The notes beneath the pieces were generated by a model that saw nothing but the letters and a program-made list of their open reading frames with translations, had not been told where the DNA came from and ran no database searches. A stretch of DNA of 64,000 nt, taken from assembly GCA_963575745.1 (NCBI GenBank), contig CAUYUJ010001414.1, positions 293,270-357,269 of the forward strand, written 5' to 3'. This DNA comes from Prorocentrum cordatum. Lineage: Eukaryota > Sar > Dinophyceae > Prorocentrales > Prorocentraceae. Position numbers and translations under genes: made by a program. Positions 18,974 through 62,820 of this stretch are shown piece after piece (position 1 is the first letter of the stretch; every line of letters starts with the position of its first letter).

Positions 18974-19100
18974 TCCTTCTCCTCCCTCCTCCTCCTCCTC
19001 CTCCTCCTCCTCCTCCTCCTCCTCCTCCTCCTCCTCCCTCCTCCTCCCTCCTCCTCATCCCTCCTCCTCCTCCTCCTCCTCCCTCCTCCTCCTCCCTCCT
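18974..19100 (+). repeat. (TCC)n tract, left half, with 18-bp direct repeat
   Basis: Polypyrimidine tract split by RT1. Its last 18 bases, CTCCTCCTCCTCCCTCCT (19083-19100), recur exactly at 25127-25144 on the far side of RT1. Confidence 0.9.
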
Positions 19101-19121
19101 CCGTAGCCATTTTGGCTCAAG
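19101..19121 (+). other. Dinoflagellate spliced-leader sequence at RT1 5' end
   Basis: An exact match to the 21 invariant bases of the leader that dinoflagellates trans-splice onto nuclear mRNAs. It is directly joined to the RT1 5' UTR with no intron-like donor after it, so it is a retroposed leader and not an SL RNA gene. Confidence 0.95.
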
Positions 19122-19238
19122 CCGTGTCGGGGCCCAGATCTTTCTGCGCCCTTGCTAACGTTCACTTCGACACGGCGCGGCGTTAGCGAGCCAATTTGGT
19201 AGCTCCCGCGTCAAACTCTCAGTATCTCTCGCCCCCGC

Positions 19239-20387
19239 ATGGCGCCGCAGCGCAATGGTGGTGCAGGCAGCCGTCAGCCTGTGGCCACCTGGCGCTGCCA
19301 GTCCTGCGGGTGCAACCGCAACGTGCTCTCCTACTGGTGGTGCAAGCACTGCGGCAAGAAATGGCAGCCGCCCTCGGTCGGCACATATCGTGGGCCCCAA
19401 GGCGCTTGGCAAGATGGGAATGGTCTTCGTCTCTTCGATGCTGATCGTCCTCATCCCCCTCTGCGTCCTGGGCTTGTCACCGCTGGAGTTCCTTCACCAC
19501 CGGGTGCGGCAGCCGAAGGTGGCGGACGTGGCGGTGCAAAGCTTGGCCTCTCCTCGACGGACCTCGCCCTCCTCGTGGACCTCACTGGCCGCGCGGGTGA
19601 CCAGGCGTCGTCCGACAAGTACAAGGAGCAGCTCAACAACCTCACCGCCCGCCCCGCTCCAAACGTGCCGCTGGAGCAGCGGGTGGCCCAGTGTCAGCGT
19701 GAGCGACTCCGACTGGCCAAGAAGTTTCAACATGAGCTTGACAAACTCGACCGCTGGGAGAAGGAGATGGAGAAGCAGCGCACTCACATCTCTTCCATCT
19801 CAGAGCAGCTCTCTCGTCAGGAGGAGTCCTACAGCGAGCTGGTTGGCAGGCTGGCGTCTGAGGTCCGCAAGGAGGCGCCGCCCCCCGAGGCGCCCAAGAT
19901 CAACATCGAGGACCTGGTCGCTGGCAAATTTGATTCGTTCCAGATCGACCTCGGCTCTTCCCTCTCCTTCGACGCTGAAGACGAACTCGAGCTGTCCAAG
20001 GAGGACAAGGAGGAGCTTGACCGTCGGCAGAAGAAGTTGGCTGAAGGTCTATCTAAATTGTCCAAGGAGCTTTTCTCTCAGGCCTTGTCTCAGGCCAAAT
20101 CCATTCGTGAACAACATGCTGAGCATCGCGCCCGCCTTCGCAAGAAGAGGAAGGGTGATGATGGCGACACCGTGCCCGCTGCTGCTGGAGGAGCTGGCCC
20201 TGCTGCAGGCGATCCACCGCGTCCTGAAGCCGGTGCTGCCGCGTCCTCTGGGGCTTCCGCGTCGGCTACGGGTCCTGCGCCGTCTTCCACGTCTGAGCCT
20301 CCTGAGTCCGCCCTTCTCAGTTCTGTCAAGGCCCGCGTGGCCAAGCTTCAGCAACAGGAAGCCCCCCCCTCGCAAGCTTGCGCGTGA
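19239..20387 (+). CDS. RT1 ORF1, zinc-ribbon/coiled-coil protein
   Basis: 382 residues starting at the first ATG after the leader. Residues 20, 23, 35 and 38 are cysteines (C-x2-C-x11-C-x2-C) in a Trp-rich setting, a zinc-ribbon-like knuckle. Residues about 130-220 are a heptad-rich coiled coil, followed by an acidic Glu/Asp/Lys segment and an Ala/Ser/Pro-rich tail. By position it is the likely RNA-binding partner of the element RNP, the usual job of non-LTR ORF1 proteins. RT2 ORF1 has the same layout. It ends TGA 8 nt before the first ATG of ORF2; a C-run just upstream (20362-20369) could allow -1 slippage into the ORF2 frame. Confidence 0.85.
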   Translation: MAPQRNGGAGSRQPVATWRCQSCGCNRNVLSYWWCKHCGKKWQPPSVGTYRGPQGAWQDGNGLRLFDADRPHPPLRPGLVTAGVPSPPGAAAEGGGRGGAKLGLSSTDLALLVDLTGRAGDQASSDKYKEQLNNLTARPAPNVPLEQRVAQCQRERLRLAKKFQHELDKLDRWEKEMEKQRTHISSISEQLSRQEESYSELVGRLASEVRKEAPPPEAPKINIEDLVAGKFDSFQIDLGSSLSFDAEDELELSKEDKEELDRRQKKLAEGLSKLSKELFSQALSQAKSIREQHAEHRARLRKKRKGDDGDTVPAAAGGAGPAAGDPPRPEAGAAASSGASASATGPAPSSTSEPPESALLSSVKARVAKLQQQEAPPSQACA

Positions 20388-20398
20388 GGGGGGGAATG
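20360..20398 (+). promoter_or_regulatory. RT1 ORF1/ORF2 junction: possible -1 frameshift or re-initiation site
   Basis: ORF1 reads GAA GCC CCC CCC TCG and stops at 20385-20387. ORF2 lies in the -1 frame, is already open across the C-run, and has an ATG eight bases after the stop (TGAGGGGGGGAATG). Either -1 slippage on the eight C or termination-reinitiation would express ORF2. RT2 has a similar GAGGCCCCC at its junction. Confidence 0.5.
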
Positions 20399-23300
20399 CT
20401 TCGCTCTCAGTACACGTCCATCCAGGGGGCCCCGACCCCCCCCCCTCAAGAACTTCTATATCTCAAGGTCATCACGGTTAATGGAAATGCTTGGTCTTCT
20501 GTGAAAGACTGGCTTCCATCAACCAACGCTCATATTATACTAATCCAGGAGCATAGGCTCCCCGCGGGAGACCCCGTCGACCAGGCCTCTGCGTGGTGCC
20601 TCTCTAACGGTTTCAAGTCCCTCTGGGCCCCAGGCTCCGTGGGCCCTCGAGGAGGCCTCTCTAGTGGTGTGGCGATTCTTGCTAGGTCTTGGCTAGGTAT
20701 TCACTCTCCGTCTGACGGGGGAATTTTGTGGCCTCACCGAGCTCTCGCAGCAGTCGTTCACCCCCCAGGGGGCCAGTCCCTCCTCGTCTCATCACTTTAC
20801 TTGCGTGACTGTGAAGGGCTCTCGGACGCGAACCTCGAAATATTATCTGCTGTGGGTTCCTACATGGCTATCTCGGGGCTTCCCTTTATCTTGGGTGGAG
20901 ATTTCAACATGGAGCCGTCCAGCCTCCAGCAGGCTGAATTTCCTCAGAATCTTCGCGGCCAAGTCGTTGCCACCACTAGCCCTACGTGTCATGGTGCTGG
21001 TGGGCCACGACTCTATGATTACTTTGTGCTGTCTGGAGGCCTATCTCAGGCTGTTAGCTCGGTTGCCTTGATCGATGCGCCTTTCCATCCGCACACGCCG
21101 CCCCAGATCACCTTTCACGCTGGTCTGGCCGATCTGCACGTTCTGGCTTTTCGGAAACCTCCCCCGATCCCCTTCGAGGCCCCTATCGGTCCGTGCCCGT
21201 GCCCCCCCACGTATAAGCAATGCTCGGCCCTCCTCGGGAAAGCCTTGCAGCGGGCTCGTGCTGGCCAGACCGATGTTCTCGACTCTCTTCTGACTAAGGC
21301 CTACAAGTGTTGGGCCAACACTGCAGAGCTTGAACTCTGCTCGATCATGGGTATAGCACTCCCATACCGTGGGGCGAGGGGCAGGGGACCTGAAACGTGG
21401 TGGCGGCCCGTTCTGGGCCGTGATCGCGGGTCGGTCCGCTACCCCGAGCTCCACAGTATGCGATGGTTATCCTCGGTGTTCCAGGCTTTTGTGTCTTCGT
21501 ATATGGAGTTTCTGGAGGACTCCCCTTCTTTGCTCAGCGAGCTCGACCGACGAGCTCGACTTCTGGCGCAGCCACCTGATTTCATCAAGCATCACCAAGG
21601 TGAGTTTTCGGATACGTTCCAGGTTGCCGCTGATGTTGGCACGCTTTGGCTGGCAGCTGCATGTGCGGCTGACGTTTCTTGTGCTGGACCTGCTCCAGGG
21701 CCTGTTCTCGACCCTGCTCTCGTTGATGATGCTCGTCTGGCTATTTCTCAGGCTTTGGCTAAGTGTAATGACAAGTATAAGCAGCAGTCTCGGAAAGACT
21801 GGGCGTCTTGGTTGAACGAAGGGATAAATCAAGGTGCCATGCGTGTCCACCAAGTCACCCGTGACCCTGCTGCGTGGCGTCCCACGTCCACCCTCAGCCG
21901 TTTCGGGAATATTGTTTCGGACCCGCAGGAGCTTTTGAGAGCTGAATCCAATCGATTTGGCTCCTTGTGGAATGCGTCCCCTTGCCCTCCCAGACACGTG
22001 ACTAAAGTTTTGGATCCCCTTCCCCTTGCTAGCATTGATCAAATTCGAACCTTATCCAGGAGCTACTCTCGTCGTTCTGCCGTCGCGTTGGACGGCTTTC
22101 ACATGCGCCACTATCAATACCTCTCCGACGAGGCCCTGGAGTGTTTCGCCCCCCTCTTGCATGTGATCGAAGTCAGCGCGATGCTTCCCCAGCAATTGAG
22201 AGCCTTCATCGTGGCCCTGATCCCCAAGAAGGTCCCTGGCTTCCGACCCATCGGTGTTTTCTCCTCTCCCTTTAGGCTTTGGGGAAAACTTCGCCGTCCC
22301 TGGGCCCTGGAGTGGGAAAGACAGAATGATCGGCCCTACTGGGCCGCGGGGAAGCATCGGTCCGCCACCGACATTGTGTGGCGCCAGAGTTTTCGCGCGG
22401 AGGCCAGCACTTCGGCTGGCCAGCATGCAGCTTCGATATTTTGGGACCTTTTGAAGTTCTATGAGCTGATCCCGCTGCACATCCTTGAGGCGAGGTGTCA
22501 TCGGCTCAGCTTTCACCCGACTCTGATCGGGGTGTGTCTCGCCGCTTATCGATCGAGCAGGTATCTCGTTCTCAGTGGTGTCGTCGCTCCTGGGGTCTTC
22601 GCCGACACCGGGCTGGTCGCTGGGTGTTCTATGGCCACGACCCTCATTCGGGTCTTCGGTTTGGAGGCTTTCGACAGCCTCTCGCTCCCCCCCGCTGTCA
22701 CCCTCGATGTGTACATCGATGACACCAGCCTCGACGGAGTTGGCAAGCTGGAGCCGTTGGTTGCTGACATGCGCTGCGCGGCCAGTCAGCTTGAGTTTGC
22801 GATTTCTCACTCCATGAAGGCTCACATTGCTCTTGACAAAGTTGGCATGGTTACCAGCAGTAAGGTTATATCCAGTAGGCTCCAGGAGGCCTTCGGAGAT
22901 CTCGTGGGCCCCCCCCTCGAGTCGGCTGTCAATCTCGGTCATGACCATACTGCTGGTACCTCTAGGCGCGTCCGTGGACGCAATTCAAAGACTAAGGCCC
23001 GCCTGCTGTCTGCCACGCGCCGTGCGCGGAGGCTCGCCCGTCAGCGAGGAGTCATCGGCAGACGTGCAACTAAGGTTTTCTGCGCAGGTGCTCTCCCAGC
23101 ACTGCAATACGGTGCTGACGTGCATGGCATGTCGGACGCCGAGCTGTTGCGAGTACGACGTCTAGCAGCTTCCACGATGAAGCCATCCTGCGGCGGCCGC
23201 TCTCTATGTATCCTCACTCGCGTTGAAGGCGATCCTGCCTGGTATGGGTCAGTCGCTCCTCTCCTCCACTACCATAGAGAGCTATGGCTGCTGCGCACGA

Positions 23301-25069
23301 GGATGACGGATTATACTCTTTCTTGGAGTCAGATCAGATTGGGTTGGGAAAGCGTTTGGAACAATCCCCCGCGTACCTGGAGATCTGTCAAAGGCCCTTT
23401 GGGGGCCATGTACTTATCTATTGCTAGATTGGGATGGACCATGAGTTCCCCATACACCCTGACCGACGACCGCGGAGTGGATATCCCTCTCCTCCTCATC
23501 TCTCCTGCCCTCCTCAAACGGCTTTGTAAGTCTGCGATTTTCAAAGCTCTTGAATGTGAGGCTGGTGACAAATATGGTCAGGGTTCTAGGCTTTGTTTTG
23601 ACGTGCTGTGTACCTCTTTGAATTCGAAGAAGTACACTCCCAAGCAGAAGGGAATCATTAGAACGCTTTCGTGTCAAGGCTTTTGGCCTTTTAGTCGAGC
23701 CAAGGCCCTGGGATGCCAAGTTGAGGACAAGTGCCCTCTCTGTCAGGCCGAGGGCGACACGATGATCCACCGCCCCTGGTATTGCCCCTCTTGCGAGGCC
23801 GAGCGTTCTGAGCATATCAAGCCCCAGTTGTTGAGCCGCGTACGCCAGGAGCTTGAGGCTGGCGTCAACCCTGGTTTTAAGGTGCTTTGTGAAACTGGGC
23901 TCTTCACTCACCCTTCCTCTGAGGCTCCCCTCCCTCAGTCGGCCCAGGAATCTCAGGACTCGGTTGTTTATGAGTATTTTCCTGATGCTTTTGAGGAGGC
24001 TGGTCTGCCTCTTCCTCCTGAGGGGCGAAGGGAGTTTCGGGGCAAAGTTTTCCTGGATGGATCGTGTTTTAGGCACCCCGTGCGTGAACTTTCCCGCTCT
24101 GGATGGGGCGCGGTCTGGCTGAATGACCAAGGTCAGATTCTCGTCCGCACTTATGGCACAGTCTGTAATGTATATCCTCAGACGAGTGTGGCAGCTGAAT
24201 TCGTCGCTCCTGCTGCCGCCTCGTGCCTGATTGAACACTCGGCTGAATTTCTGTCTGACTGTAAGGCGGTGGTCGACCATTTTGCCCTGCCCTCAGACCA
24301 GCAGCTCTCGCCTGCCAGGCCTTACAGTGGTCTAGTCATGCAGTGCCTGGCGAATGCTGACGGCAAACTCGAGGGTGTCTCCAAAGTGAAGGCGCACCTC
24401 ACAGAAGATCCCAGCCTCCCCTGGGAAGAGATTTTCAACATTCGTGGCAACAACTTTGCTGATGAGGCGGCGAAGGCAGGAGCGAACCTTCACCAGCCTC
24501 TTGATGATAGCCTCAATGACAGTCTGTCCTTTTTGGTCTCTGTTTCCAAGGCTGTCGCCAACCTTGCCGCCCATCTCCTGGATCTTTGGCCCAGGACCAA
24601 CCTGGACGGGGTCTCTTGGGAGCGCCCTCTGGCTCCTGGTCCTCCCAGGGTTCAGGGTCCTGGTCACTCCTGGGGTTGGGCTGGCAAATTCTGGCAATGC
24701 AACGAGTGCCTCAAGTGCTCTCGTTCTCTCTCGAGACCTCCGCCTGGGAGGTGCTCTCAGCAGCTTAAGGTTTCGCCCCAGTCTCTGAGAGATTTGGGCC
24801 ACCGCTGCATCATTGTCGACTGCAGCGATGGAAGTTTTGTGGCTTTCTGCCAGCTGTGTTTCTTCTACACATGTGGAGGGCAGCTTCGCGGGTTGGGGGA
24901 CCCCTGTCCAGCGAATCCCTCCCACCCTCTGGTCGCGCGAGGACACGCGGACAAGCTTTGGTCCGCCCACAAATCCCGCAGAAGAGATCTTCGGTCCAAA
25001 CTCAGCAGAGGGCTCCATCCGAAACGGAATGGGGTCACAGTTGATTTGGACGGCATTGGAGTTTTATAA
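20396..25069 (+). CDS. RT1 ORF2, endonuclease-reverse transcriptase-RNase H
   Basis: The frame is open from before 20378; the first ATG is 20396, giving 1557 residues. Positions below count from 20378. Endonuclease (EEP fold): VNGNAW near 30, IQEHR near 56, GGDFN near 173, LYDYF near 210. Reverse transcriptase: ALDGFHMRHY near 570, motif A in FWDLLKFYELI near 687, TGLVAGCS near 746, catalytic VYIDDTSL near 778. A Cys/His knuckle (CPLCQAEGD...HR) lies near 1118. RNase H acidic residues sit in FLDGSC (~1224), AAEF (~1272), SDCKAVV (~1293) and FADEAAK (~1361). A Cys-rich tail (CNECLKC, CQLCFFYTC) is at 1441-1500. All catalytic motifs are present and no stop interrupts it, so it may be active. 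It would nick target DNA and copy the element RNA in place. Confidence 0.92.
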   Translation: MLRSQYTSIQGAPTPPPQELLYLKVITVNGNAWSSVKDWLPSTNAHIILIQEHRLPAGDPVDQASAWCLSNGFKSLWAPGSVGPRGGLSSGVAILARSWLGIHSPSDGGILWPHRALAAVVHPPGGQSLLVSSLYLRDCEGLSDANLEILSAVGSYMAISGLPFILGGDFNMEPSSLQQAEFPQNLRGQVVATTSPTCHGAGGPRLYDYFVLSGGLSQAVSSVALIDAPFHPHTPPQITFHAGLADLHVLAFRKPPPIPFEAPIGPCPCPPTYKQCSALLGKALQRARAGQTDVLDSLLTKAYKCWANTAELELCSIMGIALPYRGARGRGPETWWRPVLGRDRGSVRYPELHSMRWLSSVFQAFVSSYMEFLEDSPSLLSELDRRARLLAQPPDFIKHHQGEFSDTFQVAADVGTLWLAAACAADVSCAGPAPGPVLDPALVDDARLAISQALAKCNDKYKQQSRKDWASWLNEGINQGAMRVHQVTRDPAAWRPTSTLSRFGNIVSDPQELLRAESNRFGSLWNASPCPPRHVTKVLDPLPLASIDQIRTLSRSYSRRSAVALDGFHMRHYQYLSDEALECFAPLLHVIEVSAMLPQQLRAFIVALIPKKVPGFRPIGVFSSPFRLWGKLRRPWALEWERQNDRPYWAAGKHRSATDIVWRQSFRAEASTSAGQHAASIFWDLLKFYELIPLHILEARCHRLSFHPTLIGVCLAAYRSSRYLVLSGVVAPGVFADTGLVAGCSMATTLIRVFGLEAFDSLSLPPAVTLDVYIDDTSLDGVGKLEPLVADMRCAASQLEFAISHSMKAHIALDKVGMVTSSKVISSRLQEAFGDLVGPPLESAVNLGHDHTAGTSRRVRGRNSKTKARLLSATRRARRLARQRGVIGRRATKVFCAGALPALQYGADVHGMSDAELLRVRRLAASTMKPSCGGRSLCILTRVEGDPAWYGSVAPLLHYHRELWLLRTRMTDYTLSWSQIRLGWESVWNNPPRTWRSVKGPLGAMYLSIARLGWTMSSPYTLTDDRGVDIPLLLISPALLKRLCKSAIFKALECEAGDKYGQGSRLCFDVLCTSLNSKKYTPKQKGIIRTLSCQGFWPFSRAKALGCQVEDKCPLCQAEGDTMIHRPWYCPSCEAERSEHIKPQLLSRVRQELEAGVNPGFKVLCETGLFTHPSSEAPLPQSAQESQDSVVYEYFPDAFEEAGLPLPPEGRREFRGKVFLDGSCFRHPVRELSRSGWGAVWLNDQGQILVRTYGTVCNVYPQTSVAAEFVAPAAASCLIEHSAEFLSDCKAVVDHFALPSDQQLSPARPYSGLVMQCLANADGKLEGVSKVKAHLTEDPSLPWEEIFNIRGNNFADEAAKAGANLHQPLDDSLNDSLSFLVSVSKAVANLAAHLLDLWPRTNLDGVSWERPLAPGPPRVQGPGHSWGWAGKFWQCNECLKCSRSLSRPPPGRCSQQLKVSPQSLRDLGHRCIIVDCSDGSFVAFCQLCFFYTCGGQLRGLGDPCPANPSHPLVARGHADKLWSAHKSRRRDLRSKLSRGLHPKRNGVTVDLDGIGVL

Positions 25070-25126
25070 CAATAATCTCTCTAATGCACTTTTCCCGCAC
25101 TGCGGGTCTTTGATCGTGGATGTCAA
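25070..25126 (+). other. RT1 3' UTR
   Basis: A short 3' end with TAACAATAATC and the hairpin CCCGCACTGCGGG, finishing GATGTCAA directly before the repeated 18-bp flank. No poly(A) and no simple tail. Confidence 0.7.
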
Positions 25127-25335
25127 CTCCTCCTCCTCCCTCCTCCTCCTCCGCCTCCTCCTCCTCCTCCTCCTCCTCCCTCATCTCCTCCTCCCTCATC
25201 TCCTCCTCCTCCGCCTCCCTCCTCCTCCTCCGCCGCCTCCTCCTCCTCCTCCTCCTCCTCCTCCTCCTCCTCCTCCTCCTCCTCCTCCCAATCCTCCTCC
25301 TCCTCCTCCTCCTCCTCCTCCTTCTCCTCCTCCTC
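25127..25335 (+). repeat. (TCC)n tract, right half
   Basis: Continuation of the tract interrupted by RT1. It opens with the second copy of CTCCTCCTCCTCCCTCCT and carries CCG and TCA interruptions. Confidence 0.95.
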
Positions 25336-37167: not shown

Positions 37168-39972
37168 CTAGCGCCGATGGTTGCCCCATGCCCTGTGACA
37201 GTCATGGCCGAGCTGCTCTGGCTCAATGTAGTAATCCAAGGGGGCGTAGAACCTGTGGTAGCATTCATCCGTTTCGGCCCACATTGCCTCTTCGTCAGCA
37301 AGCTGCCCCCAGTGGGCTGCGAAAGCGGTAGCCATTGCCTTGCACAGCCTTGATGGATACTCTTTGAGGGGGGCGGTCCTCCAGCCGCCTTGGCCGTCTC
37401 GTCCGTAAGCTCTGGCATGTCCCGTATGTCGGCATAGCTGTCCCCCAGGTACCGCCCTTAGCTCCTGTGCGAGTTCACCGAGGTGTGCCGCCATCAGACA
37501 TGTTGGTTTTCTCGCAGCCTGCCCAAACTGGCACTGGTCTATGTAGTGAAGTTCGACGCCCGTCTGCTCCAGGAGCCAGAGTGTCTCTGCTCGCTGCCAG
37601 CTGCTAGGCGCTTGAGGGCACCAGGTGGCTGGGGCGGGATGCTCGAGTACGGCTGAAACGTTGTACTGCAGGCCCGTGGTGATGAGTAGTAAAGCTGTCC
37701 TGTATAGCTCGTTGGCTAGTGCGATCTGTTGATGCTCCGCTTGACTAGCTGCTTGTATGCCCCAGGGGGATTCATGTGTACGTAGTGGTCGTGGTGCATT
37801 CCCCTCGGCGGCATGCCAGCGCGATGAGCACCACGTCTCGCAGGGCGGGCCCGCCACAATACCAAATATTTTGCCCTGTCGTATCGCTGCGCACCAAAAC
37901 TCGACGACGTCTGGCTTCGTCAGGTCTCCTTTGTCGGGGTCTATCTGCACGTCGATCGATAGTACTACCAAGTTACATTCCCGAATGTTCATCGCGAAAT
38001 GGCACTGGAAATCCTCGATTCGACGTCTGCCCGAGAAAAGGTGCAGCAAGAACATAGCCGTAGTAATCATGGGCCTGCACGGTGAGAATACGTTTGCAGG
38101 TGGTGTCGCTGTTTGGACGTCCGCTGCTGCAGGCGGGGCCGGCGAGAGTTGGAGCTGATGCTGCTCTATGTAGTCGGCCAGCTTGAGCTGTATGACCTGT
38201 TGGGCGGGCACCAGCGCCTTTGTAGCTCCATGCCCCATTGCCTTCCTCGCCGCCACAGCTTCTCGTTCTTCTTCTCGGCGTTCGGCTCCCTCCTGCAAAT
38301 CCATTGGGACTTCGATTGCTTGGAGGACCGCCAGGCATTTGGGGCACCTTCTCAGGTGCTTGAGTATGCGCGATCTCGTTATGAAGTTCTTCCCGCACCC
38401 AGGGCAGGTAGTCGAACGGGCAAGCAATTCGGGAAGGTCGTAGCCGATGTGTTCCATGGTGCGATGGCGCTTCCATGCTCCCCGAGTTTTTAATATCTTG
38501 CCACACTCATAGCATATGTTGCCACAGTGCTGTGCAGGCGGCAGCCCCTCGAAGTTGGGCGTGGTCATTCCAAACTCTTGCGCTAGACGGTGTAGCTGCC
38601 TTTGCCATACTCGATGACGGTATATGTCGTGCTGCCATGCTTTGTACCTGAGCCACGCACGGGTGATCGTGGCTTGTGCGGCTCGCGCATGCTGTGTGCG
38701 TAGCCATCGTATCAAGCCCCTGATGTCGCTGCCAATGTCCTCGTCGTCTAGTAGGAAACTTCTTATCCAGTCCAGATCTTCGACGATAGGAGCATTCCAG
38801 GCCTTCTCATCCTCCCAAAGTTCGTCGATGAGGCGGTGGAGGAAGGGCGCGTCTGCATGCGCCATTCTGGCCAAGTACATCAGGCGCCGTCGGCGCAGGT
38901 ACATATGGATCGGTACTTCGTCACACATCAAGTATATTTCGTCATCCAAGGTATGTACATGTCCCGCGCTGTGTCGCTGTTGTCTTGCGGCGGCCCGCGG
39001 GCTCGCCATGTGTCTGCTCTGCAGCATCTGCTTCTGCTGTACTGTAAGTGGTCCCCATACTTCGCAGTCGTAGGTCAGCTTGCTTTGCGCCAGTGCCGTG
39101 AGATACAACAGCTTGGCCTTGAGGTCGATGTGTGGCAGGCGGAAGATGGACTTCTTCAAGGGGCCCTCTGCGGATCTGTGGTCTATGATGCGTCTCATAA
39201 GGTTCGGCCCCTCCCCGCCATCACTTGTCGCAATATTGCCCAATGTGAGTCCCTGGGTCGTGACCTCCGCCGTTGTAACTTCAGTGCTGGTTGGCGGCTG
39301 ACCATCCTCGCGCAGCAGCGTGATGGGATTTGTCTTGAAAATCTTCGCCTTGATATGCTGTTTGGCGTGCCCATCAATATGCAGCAACGCTTTGGTCTTC
39401 TTGGGGTGTAGGTCATGCCCAAAGATCTTGAGTCTCCTTGCAATGATGGACAATATGTCGAAGATGCTGCTCTCGATTTTCGTGTTGTCGTTAAGTACGC
39501 ACAGGAATGTCGCGTCGTCCATGAAGGATACTTCTGGCAGGGTCCCCTCCAGCCCTTGGAGCTGGCCTGACGTGGCAATGGCTTGTTCGCCCGCCGGTGG
39601 TAGTCGTAGTAAGTACCCTCCTGAATGTAGCTTCTGCTCCAGCGGGCCCAGGGCGTGCGCGAAGCTGATGTTGAAGATGAGGTCGGCCAGGCCGTTGCCT
39701 GGGCGTGTGCCCTTGCGGCTCTCCGCGCAAAGCTCCTCTCCCCGCACTTGGAAGAATGTCGTGTCGTGTGCTTCTTCTAGCTGGAATCGCAGGTTCTCGT
39801 CTACATCGTTGAGTGCTAAGTAGCCTGGTGACGCGATCAGCTGCTGGATGGCCGGCATGAGCCATTCGGGTGGGGCGCCTCCTGCCATCACCTTTAGGGG
39901 CCAAGGCTTCTCCCCTTCCCGTCCCAGCACAAATTCTCGAATAACCGAATAAAAGGCCTGTCGTAGATCCAA
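37168..39972 (-). pseudogene. RT3 ORF3, third part: RT core, C2H2 fingers, C5-methyltransferase-like domain
   Basis: 934 codons, open to a stop at 37168. RT motif A is LLDLRQAFYSV at the very start, motif B GTRPGNGLADLIFN near 88, and catalytic FMDDATFL near 149. A thumb-like segment (DCEVWGPL) follows. Two C2H2-type fingers: CYECGKILKTRGAWKRH near 490 and CPGCGKNFITRSRILKH near 525. From about 637 a separate domain begins HLFSGRRRIEDF, then VVLSIDVQ and VAGPPCETWCSSRW near 707. These recall motif I, an acidic SAM-binding strand and the PPC motif IV of cytosine-C5 methyltransferases. LEHPAPATW may stand for motif VI. It is reading-frame intact itself but needs an upstream shift to join the RT fingers. 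Confidence 0.8.
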
Positions 39973-56517: not shown

Positions 56518-56533
56518 AGCAGGAGAGGAGGAG

Positions 56534-56597
56534 TAATTCTAATTCTAATTCTATCTGAAGCGTCATCCTCCTCTAGGGAGGTCGCTTAAACACCAAC
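56534..56597 (-). other. RT2 3' UTR and tail
   Basis: On the minus strand: AAGCG, CCTCC, loop CTAGA, GGAGG, CGCTT (a two-part hairpin), then AGATA and GAATTAGAATTAGAATTA. Short-repeat tails are typical of several non-LTR families and replace poly(A). Confidence 0.8.
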
Positions 56598-57410
56598 TCA
56601 CACATCAGGGAAACGGGTGCCCGACTTCGGGGGAAGCCCGCGGGAGATCCTCGACAAAACCTCCTTCCCAGTGGACGAGGGCCGATCACAAGCCCTGCTC
56701 AGAATGCGAGGGGGGTTCACTGTGCAAAAACCACCGCATGCCTCGCAAAACAAAACCCCTCGAAACGCGGCCAACCGATGCGTGGGCGAACAAAACTCCG
56801 ACATTGGGTGGTCCAGGGGTGTTCCACACCCCTGAACAGCAGCCAGATCATCAGGCGGCGGATCTTCCACCCCTGAGGCCTGGGCGACGCGAGGAGGAAG
56901 ACGCGGAATCCGCTGCTGCAGTTCACAGCGAGGCTTGCAGGGATCAGGCCAAAAATCCGCCAGCTTGCCCTTCAAAGGGAAGCCCCGCGCACATCGAGAA
57001 CACTTGAGAGACGCCGAACGCACCTCGGGAGAGTGACCACTATCGCGCAAGCGACACAACCTCTCAGCGCAACTGGTCTGTTGTCCGCGCTGCCGCCTAG
57101 GAACCCGTCCCGAAGTCTCACGACCTCCCGAGAAAAGCACCTCACGCTGGACCGCCAACAACCGCGACAAAACATCAAACGCAAGTTCGTCGGCCCGACG
57201 GGCTCGGTCAACAAAATCCTCGGGGATCTGGGCCCTGTCAGCAGCAGCATCGGCAAAGAAATCAGCAGCCTTGTTCAAATACACTTCTACATCACTCATG
57301 AACATATTTTGGCGTTGGGCCTGGGTCGAATGCGATTTCGTCCACAACACTTGGATAGATACCCCTCTAGCGAACATGACATCATGAAATTGCACCCAAA
57401 GATCCAGCAT
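56598..57410 (-). pseudogene. RT2 ORF2 fragment: end of RNase H and Cys-rich tail
   Basis: 270 codons in the same frame as the fragment upstream, separated only by a TAA at 57423-57425. LNKAADFFADAAA carries the last RNase H acidic position. CSRCARGF and FCEACGGFC are Cys pairs like those at the end of RT1 ORF2. Ends at the natural TGA. Confidence 0.8.
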
Positions 57411-57422
57411 CGAAGACCCACG

Positions 57423-58658
57423 TTAGTCACGCAAGGGGCGACGTGACCCTGGAACTACCCGCAAATAATCACAGTACACGCGACAATGCCCCGTAGTACG
57501 ACGTGCCAGCATAATGAGAGCAAACAACTCCGCACAAGGAGAGGGCTGCTTCTTGGTAGGGAGGGTGCCCATGAGGAGGGAGTCGAAGAGGCCAGATGAA
57601 CCTAAGTGGACACACGCCCAGCCACAGCGGCGAAGCCGCCAGTCCTTAGTGAACTTCCCCCCAGATCCATCTATTCCCCACACTCCTCCATCGATCACAC
57701 CTCCTCCGATCAGTCGGCCCCACTCCCACACCTGCGAAACAGGCGGAGGCAAATGGCCACACGTGAGGGCCTTCGGGACCAAGCCTCGAAACCACAAACA
57801 CGAAAGCTCAGGCTCCGCTAAAACCCGATCGCGCAAACAATCGGTGCGATCCAAGACCGCATCAGGCACAGGCCGATTGCAGGAGCAGTCCCAAAAGCGA
57901 TGGAAAGGGGTCTCTGCTGAGGCCCCGCAGCGTGCACAGGTTCCACCTGAACTCGAGCGGTATCCCGCATCGTAAAGTCTGGACTCCGTCCAGTAGCCAC
58001 CAGCGACAAGATTACGCACCATTCCTGCAGCCTCCGCCTCACCATTCCTTTCCTGATGACGTAACATACGATACAGCACAGTAAAATCAACTCCTCCTTC
58101 CACCCCTGTACCCATATAATGACCCGCTGCCGCTTGCCACGAAAGCGACTGGCATGCATCAAACAAAAGGTCCCAAAGATGGGCAGGGAAATCTGCATCA
58201 GTCACCCGCAATGTAACTGTACCAACACGCCAGCAGACTGGAGGAACAGGATCCCATCGCAAATCAAGTAGCACCGCAAGCGTAGCCGCAATCGGACCTC
58301 GCACGACTTGCCAACGGTACTGAGTGCACTCGAATTTAGCCAACACCTGCTTCCACACACGGGCCACACGCATACGTTGTTTATGTTCCATCCCACTCCA
58401 CGCTGACGCAAAGGCATTGAGTTGTTCGTACCGCAACCTAAACTGGGGGTCATCCTTAGCAGGGCTAACCAAACTCAGAACGGTAGTCGTACAGGACCCA
58501 GGACGCCACCAACCAGAACACGTAGCGGCCTGACTCTTCATGCTTTGGACCTGCGACGGCGAAAGACCCAAAACTTCATGGCCCCAGGATCCAACCGCCA
58601 ACACCGCAGGCTTATAGAGCTTCCTAGCTCTGCCGACTAAACGAGTCAGACACCTCAC
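57423..58658 (-). pseudogene. RT2 ORF2 fragment: RT connection, zinc knuckle, start of RNase H
   Basis: 411 codons. CARCGASAETPFHRFWDC is the zinc knuckle between RT and RNase H, as in RT1. RNase H residues appear in GIDGSGGKF, CAELFALIML and VYCDYLRVV. It is joined to the RT fragment by a frame change near 58656. Confidence 0.8.
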
Positions 58659-59704
58659 TTCGCAGCTTTCTTATACGCAACGGCACGTCGCTGTCTCAAC
58701 TTACTCACACAACGTCGACGCCCTGCAGTAGTCATGACCCCCAGGTCGCGCACCGCTTCCCCAACTCGAATAGGAAGCTGTGCAGCGCGGAAACAACCCT
58801 CAAGATGATCTTGCAAAGCTCGATCTGAACACACGAAAGTACTCTTACTGGAAATTGTAGTGCCAGCTTGCTCAAGCTGATGACTCAAATGAACTGCGGC
58901 TGGCACGATGCGCGAGACAATATCACTCCAAGAACCCTGCTGCGTCTGGGTAATGTCATCGACGTACGCCAGAGTGACAACAGGAACATACTGGGCGTGT
59001 GCGAAATCCAACAGATCGTACAAGTAGATTTTAACCCAAGGCATAGATTGCACACACCCAGGAAGCACCCCACAACCAGTGGGCATCACGTCGGACACGA
59101 AGCCGTTGACCTCCAAAATACGCGGGGCCTCATGCATCAAGATACCTAAATACAGCAAGTGAACGGGATAAGACATCTGCAAGGCGAATCCAGCCAGGCG
59201 GAGAGGGTCCACCGTATCAAAAAACTTACTGAGGCCCCAGTACAGCCCAACCGAAAGCTCCCCAAGATATCTAGCAGTCTCATGGCCGATCTCTCGCAAC
59301 AGCGCGGCCTGCAACGCCGAAGAGCCCCTAGCCGCGGTACCCCAAAAGTTTTCACGCTCCCGAGACCACTCATCAATGTCACGGCCTCGCGCACGACAAT
59401 AGACCCGATGCAACGACGGGCATTTGCAAACAGGGCGCTCCGCATCAGCCGCCTTAGGTAACAGAGCGATGATACCCATCATCACCTGCGTGGGCCACAT
59501 CATACAAGATTCGCACTGATTGAGGAGATCCGCGTAGGCCCCAACAGCAGCCCCAGGGAGGGACGCCACAATCCGCGGAGGCCAACAGTCAATGCCCACA
59601 GCAGTGTCAGCCTTGAACATCCGCGCAGCTCTGGACACCGCGCAGGGGGTCAACGGCTCGAGATCACCAACGGCCGCCAGAGCCATACGGCGAACCACAT
59701 CCAA
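58655..59704 (-). pseudogene. RT2 ORF2 fragment: reverse transcriptase
   Basis: 349 codons. TAVGIDCWPPRI is the fingers motif, LSKFFDTVDPLRL motif A with the catalytic Asp, TGCGVLPGCVQS motif B, and LAYVDDITQ the catalytic YVDD. All residues needed for polymerisation are present, but the frame is separated from the endonuclease. Confidence 0.88.
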
Positions 59705-59720
59705 AACTCCCGAGAGGGCC

Positions 59721-60326
59721 TCACGCTGCTCCAGGAGCAGTCCAAAATGCGCTCCAAAAGTCCTGCCGATACTGCATCATTTCCTCGGGCAATTGCTTCA
59801 CCTTCGAGGGAGTAACCAAATGCTCGAGGTCAGCCCCCTGATCATATTTGAGCCAAGAGTGAACCCTCTTGGCACCACGCGGCAAGGCCTTAAGAAGCCA
59901 CTGCTTCATCTTCTCCTTAGACAGAGCGCGAGCCTCATTCCAAGCCTGGCCGACCGCGTGAGCGACCGCATCACTAAGAATATTCAGTCCATCGACCGAC
60001 GACGGGACGGCGGCCAGCTGAGCTATCCACCACTCGACGGGGCGCACAAGCCCAGGGAGGCAATGCGCGTGGACTTGACCCGACAAAACGTGCAACACAC
60101 GACCAGCCCAATGCATATTATCCCAAGACTTCCGAGCCTTACACAGACGATACCCCCACAAGGTCTGAGAAACATGAGCCCAGAAACACAGCGTAGGGGA
60201 TTGGAAACTCTGACCACAGAAACCTCTACGTCCAATCTTGGCACGTCGAAAACTCGGGTAACCTCCACGCACACTACTCTCGCAAGGCAACAACTGCATC
60301 GCACAAGCGCGAGAGAGAAACATCAA
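59721..60326 (-). pseudogene. RT2 ORF2 fragment: endonuclease-RT linker
   Basis: 201 codons bridging the endonuclease and RT fragments, in another frame from both. No domain of its own; Trp/Ala-rich helices as in the equivalent region of RT1. Frame changes near 60325 and 59735. Confidence 0.7.
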
Positions 60327-61282
60327 TTCGGTAGCTCGGCTCCAAATACGGTGCTGACGAGAGAGAGAGCAGGAGAAATATGATCATGAACACGGGGTAA
60401 GAAGTTATCTTCAAAATAAAACGGAACCTCCAAGTCACCATCGTCTGACACCTGCGCCAACCAAACTTCCCAGGGTAAATCAGGACCAGCACAATCAGGA
60501 AAAGGAGGAGGTTTGACACGCTTCCACAACGTCTGTTCAACCGCCCCATGGTCCAACGAAACCTTCAAACACGCATGTGTCTTAAATGGTGACGGTGTAT
60601 ACTTAGATACTCGCACGTAGCTGGCAATATCCTCCGAAGCGACCACGTAATCGATCAGGGAGCCGCGCCCCTGCGTGCAGGTGAACTCCACCAGCGACGG
60701 GACCAGCACTCGCCCTCGCGCAAGTCGTGGGAAGCCCGAAAGATCGAGATCACCAGCTGAGACATTGAAATCGCCCATCAAAATCCACGGAACCGACGAC
60801 GTTCCCAGAAACTCCGAGACACCTCGCAATCTGTTCACATTCTCTCCACAGACTCCCAGGCCCGACACCAAATAAACAACGCCCACAGCGATCACCGCTT
60901 TTTTGGTGCGTAACTCAAGGAACATCCAATGGCTTCCAGAGCCATGGTCCTGCACTGGACCGTCTAAATGCAAAAAACGTTGAAACGACAATCCCCGAGA
61001 CACTACGGCCCCCACCCCACCATGGGTTCCACCCCCTGGGGAGGGCGTAGCAGGAATGAAATGGGGTCGCCATTTCAGCTGGTGCGCTCGCCTCTTCGCC
61101 AGTTTCACCCGATCACAATCCAGGTGATGCTCGGCGAAGAAGAAACCGTCACAACTGGCTCGCACGCTGGAAGCGAACGAGACGGCAACCTCGTTCCACG
61201 AGGTGATATTACAGAAAAGGAAATCGATACTGGTGGCCGCCTCGCGACCACCAGTGTGCCTGTTAAAAACGGGCTTGCGCAA
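60323..61282 (-). pseudogene. RT2 ORF2 fragment: EEP endonuclease
   Basis: 319 codons; the reading begins at a TTG with a TGA four codons ahead and has no ATG before the endonuclease, so expression would need a -1 shift from ORF1. FCNITSWN, FFAEHHLD, LMGDFNVS, SLIDYVVAS and CLKVSLDHG match the order of EEP motifs of non-LTR endonucleases. Ends in a TGA overlapping the next fragment. Confidence 0.85.
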
Positions 61283-62601
61283 CAGGGGGCCTCACCATCA
61301 GCAGCCGCCGCCGCCTCACGTAGTCCGTCGTCGACACCATCTGCAGGGACAGGGACTTGGGCCACGCCGCCGGCAGGGACCGCCTGCTGAAGCACTCTGC
61401 CAAAACTCGAGGCCGTGTCCTCGCGGATAGTTCGCAGCCGCTTGACCGCTTTGCAATTGGCGGACTTGACCAAGAGCTTCTCCATGCGATCCTGCTGTGT
61501 AGCTTCGAGGGGCCCTTCACGTGCCCGCTTGCGCAGAGACTCCAACTCATCACGCTGAGCATCACCATACTCTGAAGCCATCTCGGAATCGGCGTCGTCC
61601 TCCTTGACCGCGCTGACGTAGATCCGCTGGAGCTCCTGCCAGAACTCCAGCCGCTGACGATGCTCCGCACACCAGCGCGCCAGACCCTCTTCATCAAGCT
61701 GAGCCAGATTAGGAGGCTGAAGCACCGCCTGCGGCGCACCCGCGCCAGCCGCCACGCCGCCATCCACGCCAGCGGCACGGGCGCCCACGGGGGCAGCAGG
61801 CGCAGCGCCTCCTCGACCGCCGCCGCCTGCGACAGGAGGAGCGCCCGCCGCGCCGCCAGCGCCACCGCCAGGAGCAACCCCAGCGCCGCCAGCAGCACCA
61901 GCGCCACGCGCCGCGCCAGCCGCCATAGCCGCCTGCGCTTCGTACAGAGCGCGAGCGGCCTCGCCTCGAACACGGTCCTCCCCCTCACGCTGTAGGCGTC
62001 GGAAGTCAGCCTCCACGAAGCCATCCTTCGCCAACGTAGCCTCACGCAGCAGGACCTGTTTGGCTTGCAGCACCTGCAGCGCCTCACGATGTTGCGTCTC
62101 AGCAGCATGAAGAGCTTCCCGATGGCGAACCACAGCCGCCAGCCGAGCTTCCACGTCGCCCTGAGCAATTCGTTCAGCTCGCGACTGCACCTCGACCTCC
62201 TTCGCCAGGGCAGTACGCTTCGCAGCCACGAGCTTCTCCATCTCGTTCTCAGTGGCAGGTTCAGGCGGGGGAGCAGGTGGCGCGCGCGGCTCCGCCGCGG
62301 CCGCCGCGCCAAGCTCCCCGAGCGCCCCTGCCAAGTGCGGGTACTTGGCCGCCAGCCACTCGAGATCGCCAGCAGCATCACGGCCACCAGCGTCCTTAGC
62401 AGCAGGCTCTCCGACGTCAAGATAGCAGCCGCCGCACTTACTGCAACTCCAGTTGCCATACTTGTCGAACTCCCAGTGCCCACAGGCACCGCACACTGAG
62501 TAGGTATCTCGACGCTGGGCTTCACGACCCCATGCGCCGCCGTAGCCACGCTTGCGACCTCCGCGCCCTTGGTGCCAGGGGGCACGCGACCGCCACGACA
62601 T
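61105..62601 (-). CDS. RT2 ORF1, zinc-ribbon/coiled-coil protein
   Basis: 498 codons from an ATG 183 nt after the leader. Cysteines at 37, 40, 53 and 56 (C-x2-C-x12-C-x2-C) match the RT1 knuckle. Residues about 115-215 are coiled coil, 215-290 Ala/Gly-rich, and 300-400 helical and charged. The last ~60 codons overlap the endonuclease in another frame and are probably not original: the natural end or shift point is at GAGGCCCCC (61293-61285). No internal stop. Confidence 0.8.
   Translation of the reverse strand: MSWRSRAPWHQGRGGRKRGYGGAWGREAQRRDTYSVCGACGHWEFDKYGNWSCSKCGGCYLDVGEPAAKDAGGRDAAGDLEWLAAKYPHLAGALGELGAAAAAEPRAPPAPPPEPATENEMEKLVAAKRTALAKEVEVQSRAERIAQGDVEARLAAVVRHREALHAAETQHREALQVLQAKQVLLREATLAKDGFVEADFRRLQREGEDRVRGEAARALYEAQAAMAAGAARGAGAAGGAGVAPGGGAGGAAGAPPVAGGGGRGGAAPAAPVGARAAGVDGGVAAGAGAPQAVLQPPNLAQLDEEGLARWCAEHRQRLEFWQELQRIYVSAVKEDDADSEMASEYGDAQRDELESLRKRAREGPLEATQQDRMEKLLVKSANCKAVKRLRTIREDTASSFGRVLQQAVPAGGVAQVPVPADGVDDGLREAAAAADGEAPCCASPFLTGTLVVARRPPVSISFSVISPRGTRLPSRSLPACEPVVTVSSSPSITWIVIG
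61283..61296 (-). promoter_or_regulatory. RT2 ORF1/ORF2 junction, possible -1 frameshift site
   Basis: ORF1 reads GAG GCC CCC TGT; the -1 frame reads CCC CTG TTG CGC and leads straight into the endonuclease. It resembles the GAAGCCCCCCCC junction of RT1. Confidence 0.45.
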
Positions 62602-62615
62602 GACCTGCTAGCGGG

Positions 62616-62725
62616 GGCCCAACTCCCGCAGTGAAGGCCAACACACACTGAAGCGGGGGCCCAACTCCCGCGGATGAGGCCAGAAACAGGTGCAGGCGCC
62701 CAACTCCTGCAGTGAAGGCGAAGAA
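62616..62725 (-). repeat. Three repeats in the RT2 5' UTR
   Basis: CCCAACTCCCGCAGTGAAGG-type units at about 62618, 62660 and 62702 on the plus strand (GGAGTTGGGC on the element's sense strand), about 42 bp apart. Confidence 0.85.
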
Positions 62726-62783
62726 CTCCGAGATCTGGCCGCGGACTAGCGGTATCCGTTTTGGCCCCAAGGGAACCAGGCAT

Positions 62784-62804
62784 CTTGAGCCAAAATGGCT
62801 ACGG
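62784..62804 (-). other. Dinoflagellate spliced-leader sequence at RT2 5' end
   Basis: Exact leader match on the minus strand, beginning at the base after the 16-bp repeat. Directly followed by ATGCCTGG, an ATG in a different frame from ORF1 that opens a 506-codon frame. Confidence 0.95.
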
Positions 62805-62820
62805 AGCAGGAGAGGAGGAG

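Follow-up and report, generated by a model that had tools for sequence, protein, structure and literature searches.

LINE copies headed by the host spliced leader in the dinoflagellate Prorocentrum cordatum, with a leader probably regained by trans-splicing in each round

A stretch of 64,000 nucleotides from the dinoflagellate Prorocentrum cordatum (contig CAUYUJ010001414.1, positions 293,270 to 357,269, referred to here as the window; GC content 61.7%) contains a retrotransposon, RT1, that begins exactly with the dinoflagellate spliced leader. RT1 is a long interspersed nuclear element (LINE), i.e. a retrotransposon without long terminal repeats (LTRs). In RT1 and in a second family, E2, the leader stands at the exact boundary of the inserted copies, target site duplications abut it, and it is renewed rather than inherited. 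We consider it very probable (about 0.9), on the basis of sequence comparisons, that RT1 is copied from a leader-bearing, trans-spliced RNA and gains a new leader in each round. A preceding sequence-only reading of the window had proposed that the RNA of RT1 underwent trans-splicing and was then copied over its whole length by the element's own reverse transcriptase. The core of that proposal is strongly supported by the relatives of RT1 described below; that trans-splicing supplies the leader, and that RT1 mobilises itself rather than being moved by the enzyme of another LINE, is what we infer. All counts refer to one genome, the P. cordatum assembly of 4.128 Gb in 21,875 contigs.

Leader-headed LINE copies and their target site duplications

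The whole RT1 element spans positions 19100-25126 on the forward strand and is flanked by a 17-bp duplication. As the sequence-only reading had stated, a 21-nt leader is present without mismatches at 19101-19121; it did not occur in any of 100 shuffled versions of the window. The preceding T19100 most likely belongs to the leader as well, because in three other copies (L012, L013 and L090) the 21-mer is likewise preceded by a T that is not included in the duplication, and because the dinoflagellate spliced leader (DinoSL) is given as DCCGUAGCC..., where D is U, A or G (PMC6050394; this and the other papers cited are drawn on in excerpts). The base preceding the 21-mer was T at 26 of 28 sampled leader sites, A at one and C at one. 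The RT1 leader is thus most likely 22 nt long (19100-19121, TCCGTAGCCATTTTGGCTCAAG). The sequence CTCCTCCTCCTCCCTCCT is indeed present on both sides of the element, at 19083-19100 and at 25127-25144, but the 18-bp duplication first reported becomes one of 17 bp (19083-19099 and 25127-25143) once T19100 is assigned to the leader, and measures 18 bp only if this T is shared. It should be noted that the 5' duplication lies within a (CCT)n tract, and that 2693 of 24420 end pairings within the two CCT tracts of the window agree over at least 17 bases. Taken by itself, a duplication in such a target is weak proof of insertion, and that of the window copy was rejected as such; the proof is carried by copies in unique sequence.

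Both reading frames of the window copy are open, as originally noted. Open reading frame (ORF) 1 (19239-20387, 382 amino acids) shows zinc-ribbon-like cysteines near its N-terminus by eye and matched no Pfam family at an E-value of 0.001. ORF2 (20396-25069, counted from the first ATG at 20396; frame open from 20378 to 25069) encodes an endonuclease (PF03372, E-value 1.8e-10, above the cut-off) and a reverse transcriptase with a YIDD motif, whose match to RVT_1 (E-value 4e-4) is below the Pfam cut-off (20.6 versus 29.6 bits); five RT1 relatives were found with the reverse transcriptase region, and RVT_1 was listed for three of them. An RNase H-like stretch of ORF2 was read by eye and had no Pfam match, and a sequence search of ORF2 against PDB gave no match. 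The 3' untranslated region (UTR; 25070-25126) terminates in GGATGTCAA. No direct repeat of at least 40 bp (seed 14) was found in RT1 or E2, which are therefore without long terminal repeats. With its endonuclease, its reverse transcriptase, duplications at variable sites, and a 3' A run or simple repeat in relatives, RT1 is a LINE.

E2 lies on the reverse strand (56534-62805) and comprises a leader of 22 nt (62784-62805, with the exact 21-mer at 62784-62804), ORF1, an endonuclease stretch, a reverse transcriptase and a tail of GAATTA repeats. Its 15-bp target duplication, CTCCTCCTCTCCTGC, is found at 62806-62820 on the 5' side and at 56519-56533 on the 3' side. The leader stands at CCGTGTCG in RT1 and at ATGCCTGG in E2, and E2 differs from RT1 in its 5' UTR, its tail and its own duplication. 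The E2 reverse transcriptase matched a profile made in this analysis with an E-value of 1.7e-48, and the endonuclease stretch gave matches to the corresponding stretches of other LINEs in the sample; the ORF2 region is broken over several frames.

When the genome was searched with the first 700 bases of RT1, 40 of 56 candidates were scored and 41 matches obtained, among which close copies show 97-99% identity over these 700 bases. Thirty-seven loci were fetched and the first 30 were read, ten of which were dropped because they had no 5' module at the match (being truncated, having other 5' sequence, or being part of a copy already counted). From 16 predicted 3' regions that were fetched, the 3' end could be placed in 11, two of which were not used: L054, which belongs to the 5'-truncated L022, and L053, the 3' region of L029, which matched only to base 513 of 527. 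The remaining nine relatives were examined together with the window copies of RT1 and E2; six of these 11 copies start with a leader and five with only an AG in its place. Exact duplications of 13-17 bp abut the 5' end and the tail in 10 of the 11 copies, whereas only one of 110 mismatched end pairings reached 10 bp. In the eleventh copy, L011, the two duplication copies differ by a small insertion or deletion, as judged by eye. Duplications in unique sequence are exemplified by CCGACTTGAGCCTGCC (L013) and TCCAGCGCAGTGAAC (L012). At the 3' end, GTCAA is followed by 2-7 A before the duplication in eight of the nine relatives and by ACAAA in L011; in the window copy nothing is added. The absence of poly(A) had been taken as an argument against ordinary mRNA retroposition, but this argument fails, since relatives of RT1 bear short A tails and E2 ends in GAATTA repeats.

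For E2, 41 matches were obtained with its first 600 bases as query (of 856 candidates, 40 were scored), and 33 5' ends were fetched (L075-L107). All 33 bear a leader within 4 edits, and 31 of them have distinct flanks (L078 being partly masked). This includes 11 copies that matched the query only from base 113 or 158, yet have the leader at their own 5' ends. The junction could be read in 12 of the 15 3' regions that were fetched, and in seven of these (L076, L079, L081, L087, L090, L091 and L092) an automatic test detected a match of at least 15 bp beside leader and tail, as compared to 2 of 132 mismatched pairings. L090 is inserted in unique sequence (GCCATCGGAGAGCACC). Three further observations concern the 5' ends of this family. 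L076 carries an extra GA between duplication and leader, in which the G before D = A was perhaps copied from the cap. Among L075-L107, 5' modules are swapped between LINE families, with one body (from base 113 or 158) standing behind different leader-adjoining modules. Lastly, the first 116 bases of E2 also precede other sequence.

Renewal of the leader

The sequence-only reading had regarded the leader as part of the mobile unit. This part of it did not hold, as three lines of evidence show that the leader is renewed and not inherited. Firstly, leader and body were compared for divergence. Pairwise differences among eight old E2-type copies amount to 12.1% for the leader and 13.4% for the body next to it, and those among six young copies to 1.6% and 1.8%, respectively. 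Between the two subfamilies represented by the old copies and the window E2, the body differs by 31.7% and the leader by only 6.5%. A leader inherited as DNA should have diverged along with the body, and we therefore conclude that it was renewed.

Secondly, one copy uses a different junction. L087-L090 read leader-TTCGAAACC...GTCCGCAG-CCGTGCGGCAGG, whereas L091 reads leader-CCGTGCGGCAGG, its leader being joined at an internal AG of the 5' UTR of the others, between GTCCGCAG and CCGTGCGG. Its duplication abuts the leader and lies in a pyrimidine tract. L091 thus looks like the fossil of a single splicing event.

Thirdly, relics of earlier leaders are found behind present ones. In the RT1 copy L012, two truncated relics are stacked behind the leader (leader-relic-relic-GTGTAG-body), and an exact 15-nt relic, CCATTTTGGCTCAAG, directly follows 1,202 of the 14,218 exact leaders in the genome. 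Truncation of this kind is expected if the leader's own CCGTAG acts as an acceptor, as has been described for host mRNAs (PMC3229502). A separate observation in the 5' UTR of the window RT1 is that GCGAGCCAATTTGGTAGCTC, at 19187-19206, resembles a decayed leader, where L029 reads AGCCATTTTGGCAAG; this stretch is possibly an ancient relic, which would make the first 65 bases a later acquisition.

These findings suggest the following cycle. The RT1 transcript would be handled like a host mRNA, the 22-nt leader being trans-spliced at the AG at the start of the 5' UTR. Machinery of the element, probably its own, would then copy this RNA to the first nucleotide by target-primed reverse transcription, often into a pyrimidine-rich target, and the target site would be duplicated over about 13-17 bp. 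Leader DNA would form the start of the new copy and would subsequently decay neutrally. Upon the next transcription, the old leader would either be replaced, if splicing takes place at CAAG, or survive as a relic of 15 nt, if it takes place at CCGTAG; in both cases a new leader would be added. It is an attractive inference that the next acceptor would draw its polypyrimidine tract from the target.

Leaders across the genome and the leaderless end of RT1

The assembly contains 14,218 exact leaders and not a single match to the reversed pattern. We sampled 28 leader sites (8 loci and 20 picked from a list of 100), a selection that is not random and was read to uneven depth. At 12 of the 28 sites, the leader heads a LINE domain: eight (L001, L058, L059, L066, L069, L070, L071 and L073) match an endonuclease profile made in this analysis, L060 does so after a further 2.9 kb were read (an extension made for 11 sites), and L067, L068 and L074 match Pfam profiles for endonuclease or reverse transcriptase with scores under the curated cut-off. 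Eight further sites (L003, L006, L007, L055, L057, L061, L063 and L064) are linked only by sequence common to other sites, some of it short. The link of L057 was made by eye from 122 bases. L063 and L064 are well matched to one another, but their match to the other sites covers only 35 bases.

Duplications are often pyrimidine-rich, with L012 (47%) and L090 (44%) as exceptions. A pyrimidine tract as a universal target rule was nonetheless rejected, as 12 pyrimidines end two bases before the 21-mer at only 4,296 of the 14,218 leaders, and 12 purines do so at 1,498. One leader-headed family (L057, L067 and L068; GCTAAACGT...) is found downstream of purine-rich (GGA) tracts, and target choice may differ by LINE family. 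Two observations lie outside these families. A scan of viral contigs for the leader gave one contig, IMGVR_UViG_3300045993_001077 of IMG/VR (L158, 7157 bases), in which two exact DinoSL copies stand 147 bases apart on the minus strand (L158:2746-2913) and which had no match to the LINE profiles made in this analysis. In the window, the reverse strand has a long open frame at 37168-39972 that matches a C2H2 zinc finger.

Several observations weigh against the view that these LINEs are copied from trans-spliced RNA. Eight of the 28 sampled sites (L002, L004, L005, L008, L056, L062, L065 and L072) have no LINE assignment, and many of the targets are simple repeats. Among the 12 readable E2 sites, those other than L076, L077 and L090 are pure pyrimidine tracts, and five of the 12 copies showed no duplication in the automatic test; in L077 one was seen by eye behind about 8 extra T, and for L080, L085, L088 and L089 none was found. 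Most importantly, 15 of the 26 RT1-type 5' ends that were read have no leader, only AG before the body (L010, L014-L017, L019-L021, L023, L032, L035, L111-L113 and L157; the AAG of L113 might be a longer leader remnant). In this count, L026 and L027 were taken as one because of their common flanks, and the ambiguous L114 was left out. A genome search for leaders and abutting repeats at RT1-like copies, which the sequence-only reading had suggested, thus gave a mixed answer: apart from the 15 AG ends, a full leader or close match is present in nine copies (L009, L011, L012, L013, L018, L029 and L108-L110) and a partial or decayed one in two (L026 and L038).

Although most RT1 relatives thus lack the leader, their 5' ends are not simply unrelated, which would have counted against that reading, but represent a second defined end. 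In all five leaderless copies of which both ends were read, the AG, which corresponds to 19120-19121 in the window copy, lies outside the duplication. The AG is therefore part of the inserted copy, and the possibility that it belongs to the target was rejected. The other ten leaderless copies did not enter the duplication test, either giving no match in the 3' stretch fetched (L010, L014, L023, L032 and L035) or lying outside the set of fetched 3' stretches (L020, L111-L113 and L157). The 16-base sequence that opens the body has 28 exact matches in the genome; AG precedes all 13 that are RT1-like and none of the 15 unrelated ones. RT1 therefore has two exact 5' ends.

Immediately behind the AG lies a conserved module (19122-19205 in the window) with a pseudoknot that starts at the first base after AG. 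Its helices are P1 (19122-19129 with 19168-19175) and P2 (19154-19160 with 19181-19187), and a hairpin (19130-19151) occupies the first loop. The structure was examined in 16 of 19 module sequences, three near-copies of L009 being left out, and it was drawn from these same sequences. Pairing was found in 92.4% of the cells and changes on both sides of a pair in 12 cells (shuffled mean 3.0), values that none of 500 shuffles reached; sliding the partner strand reduced pairing to 33-47%. Five pairs showed both-side changes, a number reached by 40 of 500 shuffles, and another, weaker measure was reached by 16 of 500. When the 5' region of RT1 was scanned with Rfam for self-cleaving ribozymes, only a sub-threshold match to SECIS_3 was obtained, and a sequence search found no family of the hepatitis delta virus (HDV) type in 19000-19400 at E-values up to 5. 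By eye, the order of the pseudoknot does not fit the HDV fold.

For the AG ends, a second RNA start that would be set by this module is most likely. An extension of our reading, for and against which the odds appear to us about even, is that RT1 produces two RNAs that are both reverse transcribed: a leader-bearing one from read-through transcription and trans-splicing, and a leaderless one that starts at the AG through an internal promoter or RNA processing, similar to the Pr77 promoter of the trypanosome element L1Tc. This would fit the AG followed by CCGTG outside the duplications, the pseudoknot beginning at the very next base, and the difference in end type between close relatives in the tree (leader in L009 and AG in L010; leader in L012 and AG in L014); unspliced transcripts are moreover known for L1Tc (PMC4748587). 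On the other hand, apart from SECIS_3, the module had no Rfam match, and the same end would result from a reverse transcription stop two bases into the leader or from 5' trimming to the pseudoknot. Moreover, none of the 41 E2 matches that were listed, with 40 of 856 candidates scored, begins where the leader stops, so that the AG end may be a feature of RT1 alone.

Three other explanations were considered. It seems improbable that RT1 copies are passive processed copies of a LINE mRNA moved by the enzyme of another LINE, as may hold for host retrogenes. The short A tails of RT1 relatives and the recycling of dinoflagellate host mRNAs with leader relics (PMC3229502, PMC6050394) are compatible with this idea, but the repeated rounds in L012, the open frames of the window copy and the existence of close copies fit self-mobilisation. 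Still less credible is a leader that belongs permanently to the DNA of the element and passes from copy to copy, rather than being added by trans-splicing. Its position is constant in the fetched copies of a family, as such a leader would require; leader and body, however, diverge alike only within and not between subfamilies, L091 uses another junction, some RT1 copies have no leader, and different 5' UTRs bear the same leader at the exact boundary. Finally, a site-specific LINE in spliced-leader RNA genes, like SLACS or CZAR, would also adjoin leader sequence, but it can be practically dismissed, because the duplications enclose the leader, which forms the 5' end, the flanking sequences that were read consist of CCT tracts or other DNA, and no leader remnant was seen 3' of the element.

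Known systems and implications

SLACS, CZAR and CRE are LINEs that insert into leader RNA genes. They resemble RT1 and E2 in placing a LINE beside a leader, but RT1 and E2 carry the leader within the inserted copy.

A close parallel is the recycling of dinoflagellate mRNAs with relict leaders (Slamovits and Keeling 2008, as cited in PMC3229502 and PMC6050394). In both cases leader DNA is found at the 5' end of integrated copies, and stacked relics are cut at the leader's own AG. However, the recycled cargo consists of host genes, whereas that of RT1 and E2 encodes its own endonuclease and reverse transcriptase and has LINE-type duplications. L1Tc and ingi of trypanosomatids are likewise LINEs in a genome with leader trans-splicing; their 77-nt hallmark Pr77 is common to several element types, and the RT1 module is of similar size and also occurs beside other sequence. 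The leaderless L1Tc transcripts resemble the AG ends of RT1, but Pr77 transcripts are reported to be unspliced and Pr77 RNA is an HDV-like ribozyme, whereas RT1 bears a leader and had no HDV-like match (PMC4748587). In Hydra, transposon transcripts also receive the host leader, albeit at the RNA level (PMC12220107), and Schistosoma mansoni has leader-containing transposable elements, six of them with leader sequence in the genome, for which the authors could not exclude chimeric assembly (PMC5832876). The passages on these two organisms mention neither duplications nor repeated rounds, both of which are present in RT1. Among the papers listed in the literature searched, which included few subscription papers, we saw none that describes LINE copies starting with a spliced leader and enclosed by duplications; nearest to this come the Hydra and Schistosoma cases and the unspliced L1Tc transcripts of Trypanosoma cruzi.

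The mediator of mRNA recycling is called unknown in a review that favours an LTR element (PMC6050394), and for viral insertions tagged with the leader in Symbiodiniaceae, LINEs have been argued to be the carrier (PMC10235124). A broader reading, which we put forward tentatively and regard as possible but somewhat less likely than the two RNAs proposed above, is that these LINEs cede the 5' end of their RNA to the host. A pyrimidine-rich landing site and the AG of the leader would together rebuild a trans-splice acceptor, read-through transcription would yield capped leader RNA from many loci, RT1 would keep in addition its leaderless end marked by the pseudoknot, and such LINEs, not LTR elements, would be the source of most leader-tagged DNA in this genome and the engine of dinoflagellate mRNA recycling.

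The present findings bear on how dinoflagellate genomes are read. Leader DNA upstream of dinoflagellate genes has been treated as a tag of retrogenes (PMC6050394). As 12 of 28 leader sites head LINE domains (20 of 28 if the sites linked by sequence are included), retrogene counts that are based on the leader need a filter for LINEs, and LINEs become the leading candidate for the dinoflagellate recycling machinery. Since an insertion starts with the same 22 letters, mismatches in the leader may serve as an insertion clock, and stacked relics count rounds of retrotransposition. With its two 5' ends, RT1 offers an opportunity to test, in an organism that practises trans-splicing, where LINE RNA starts and how it is capped.

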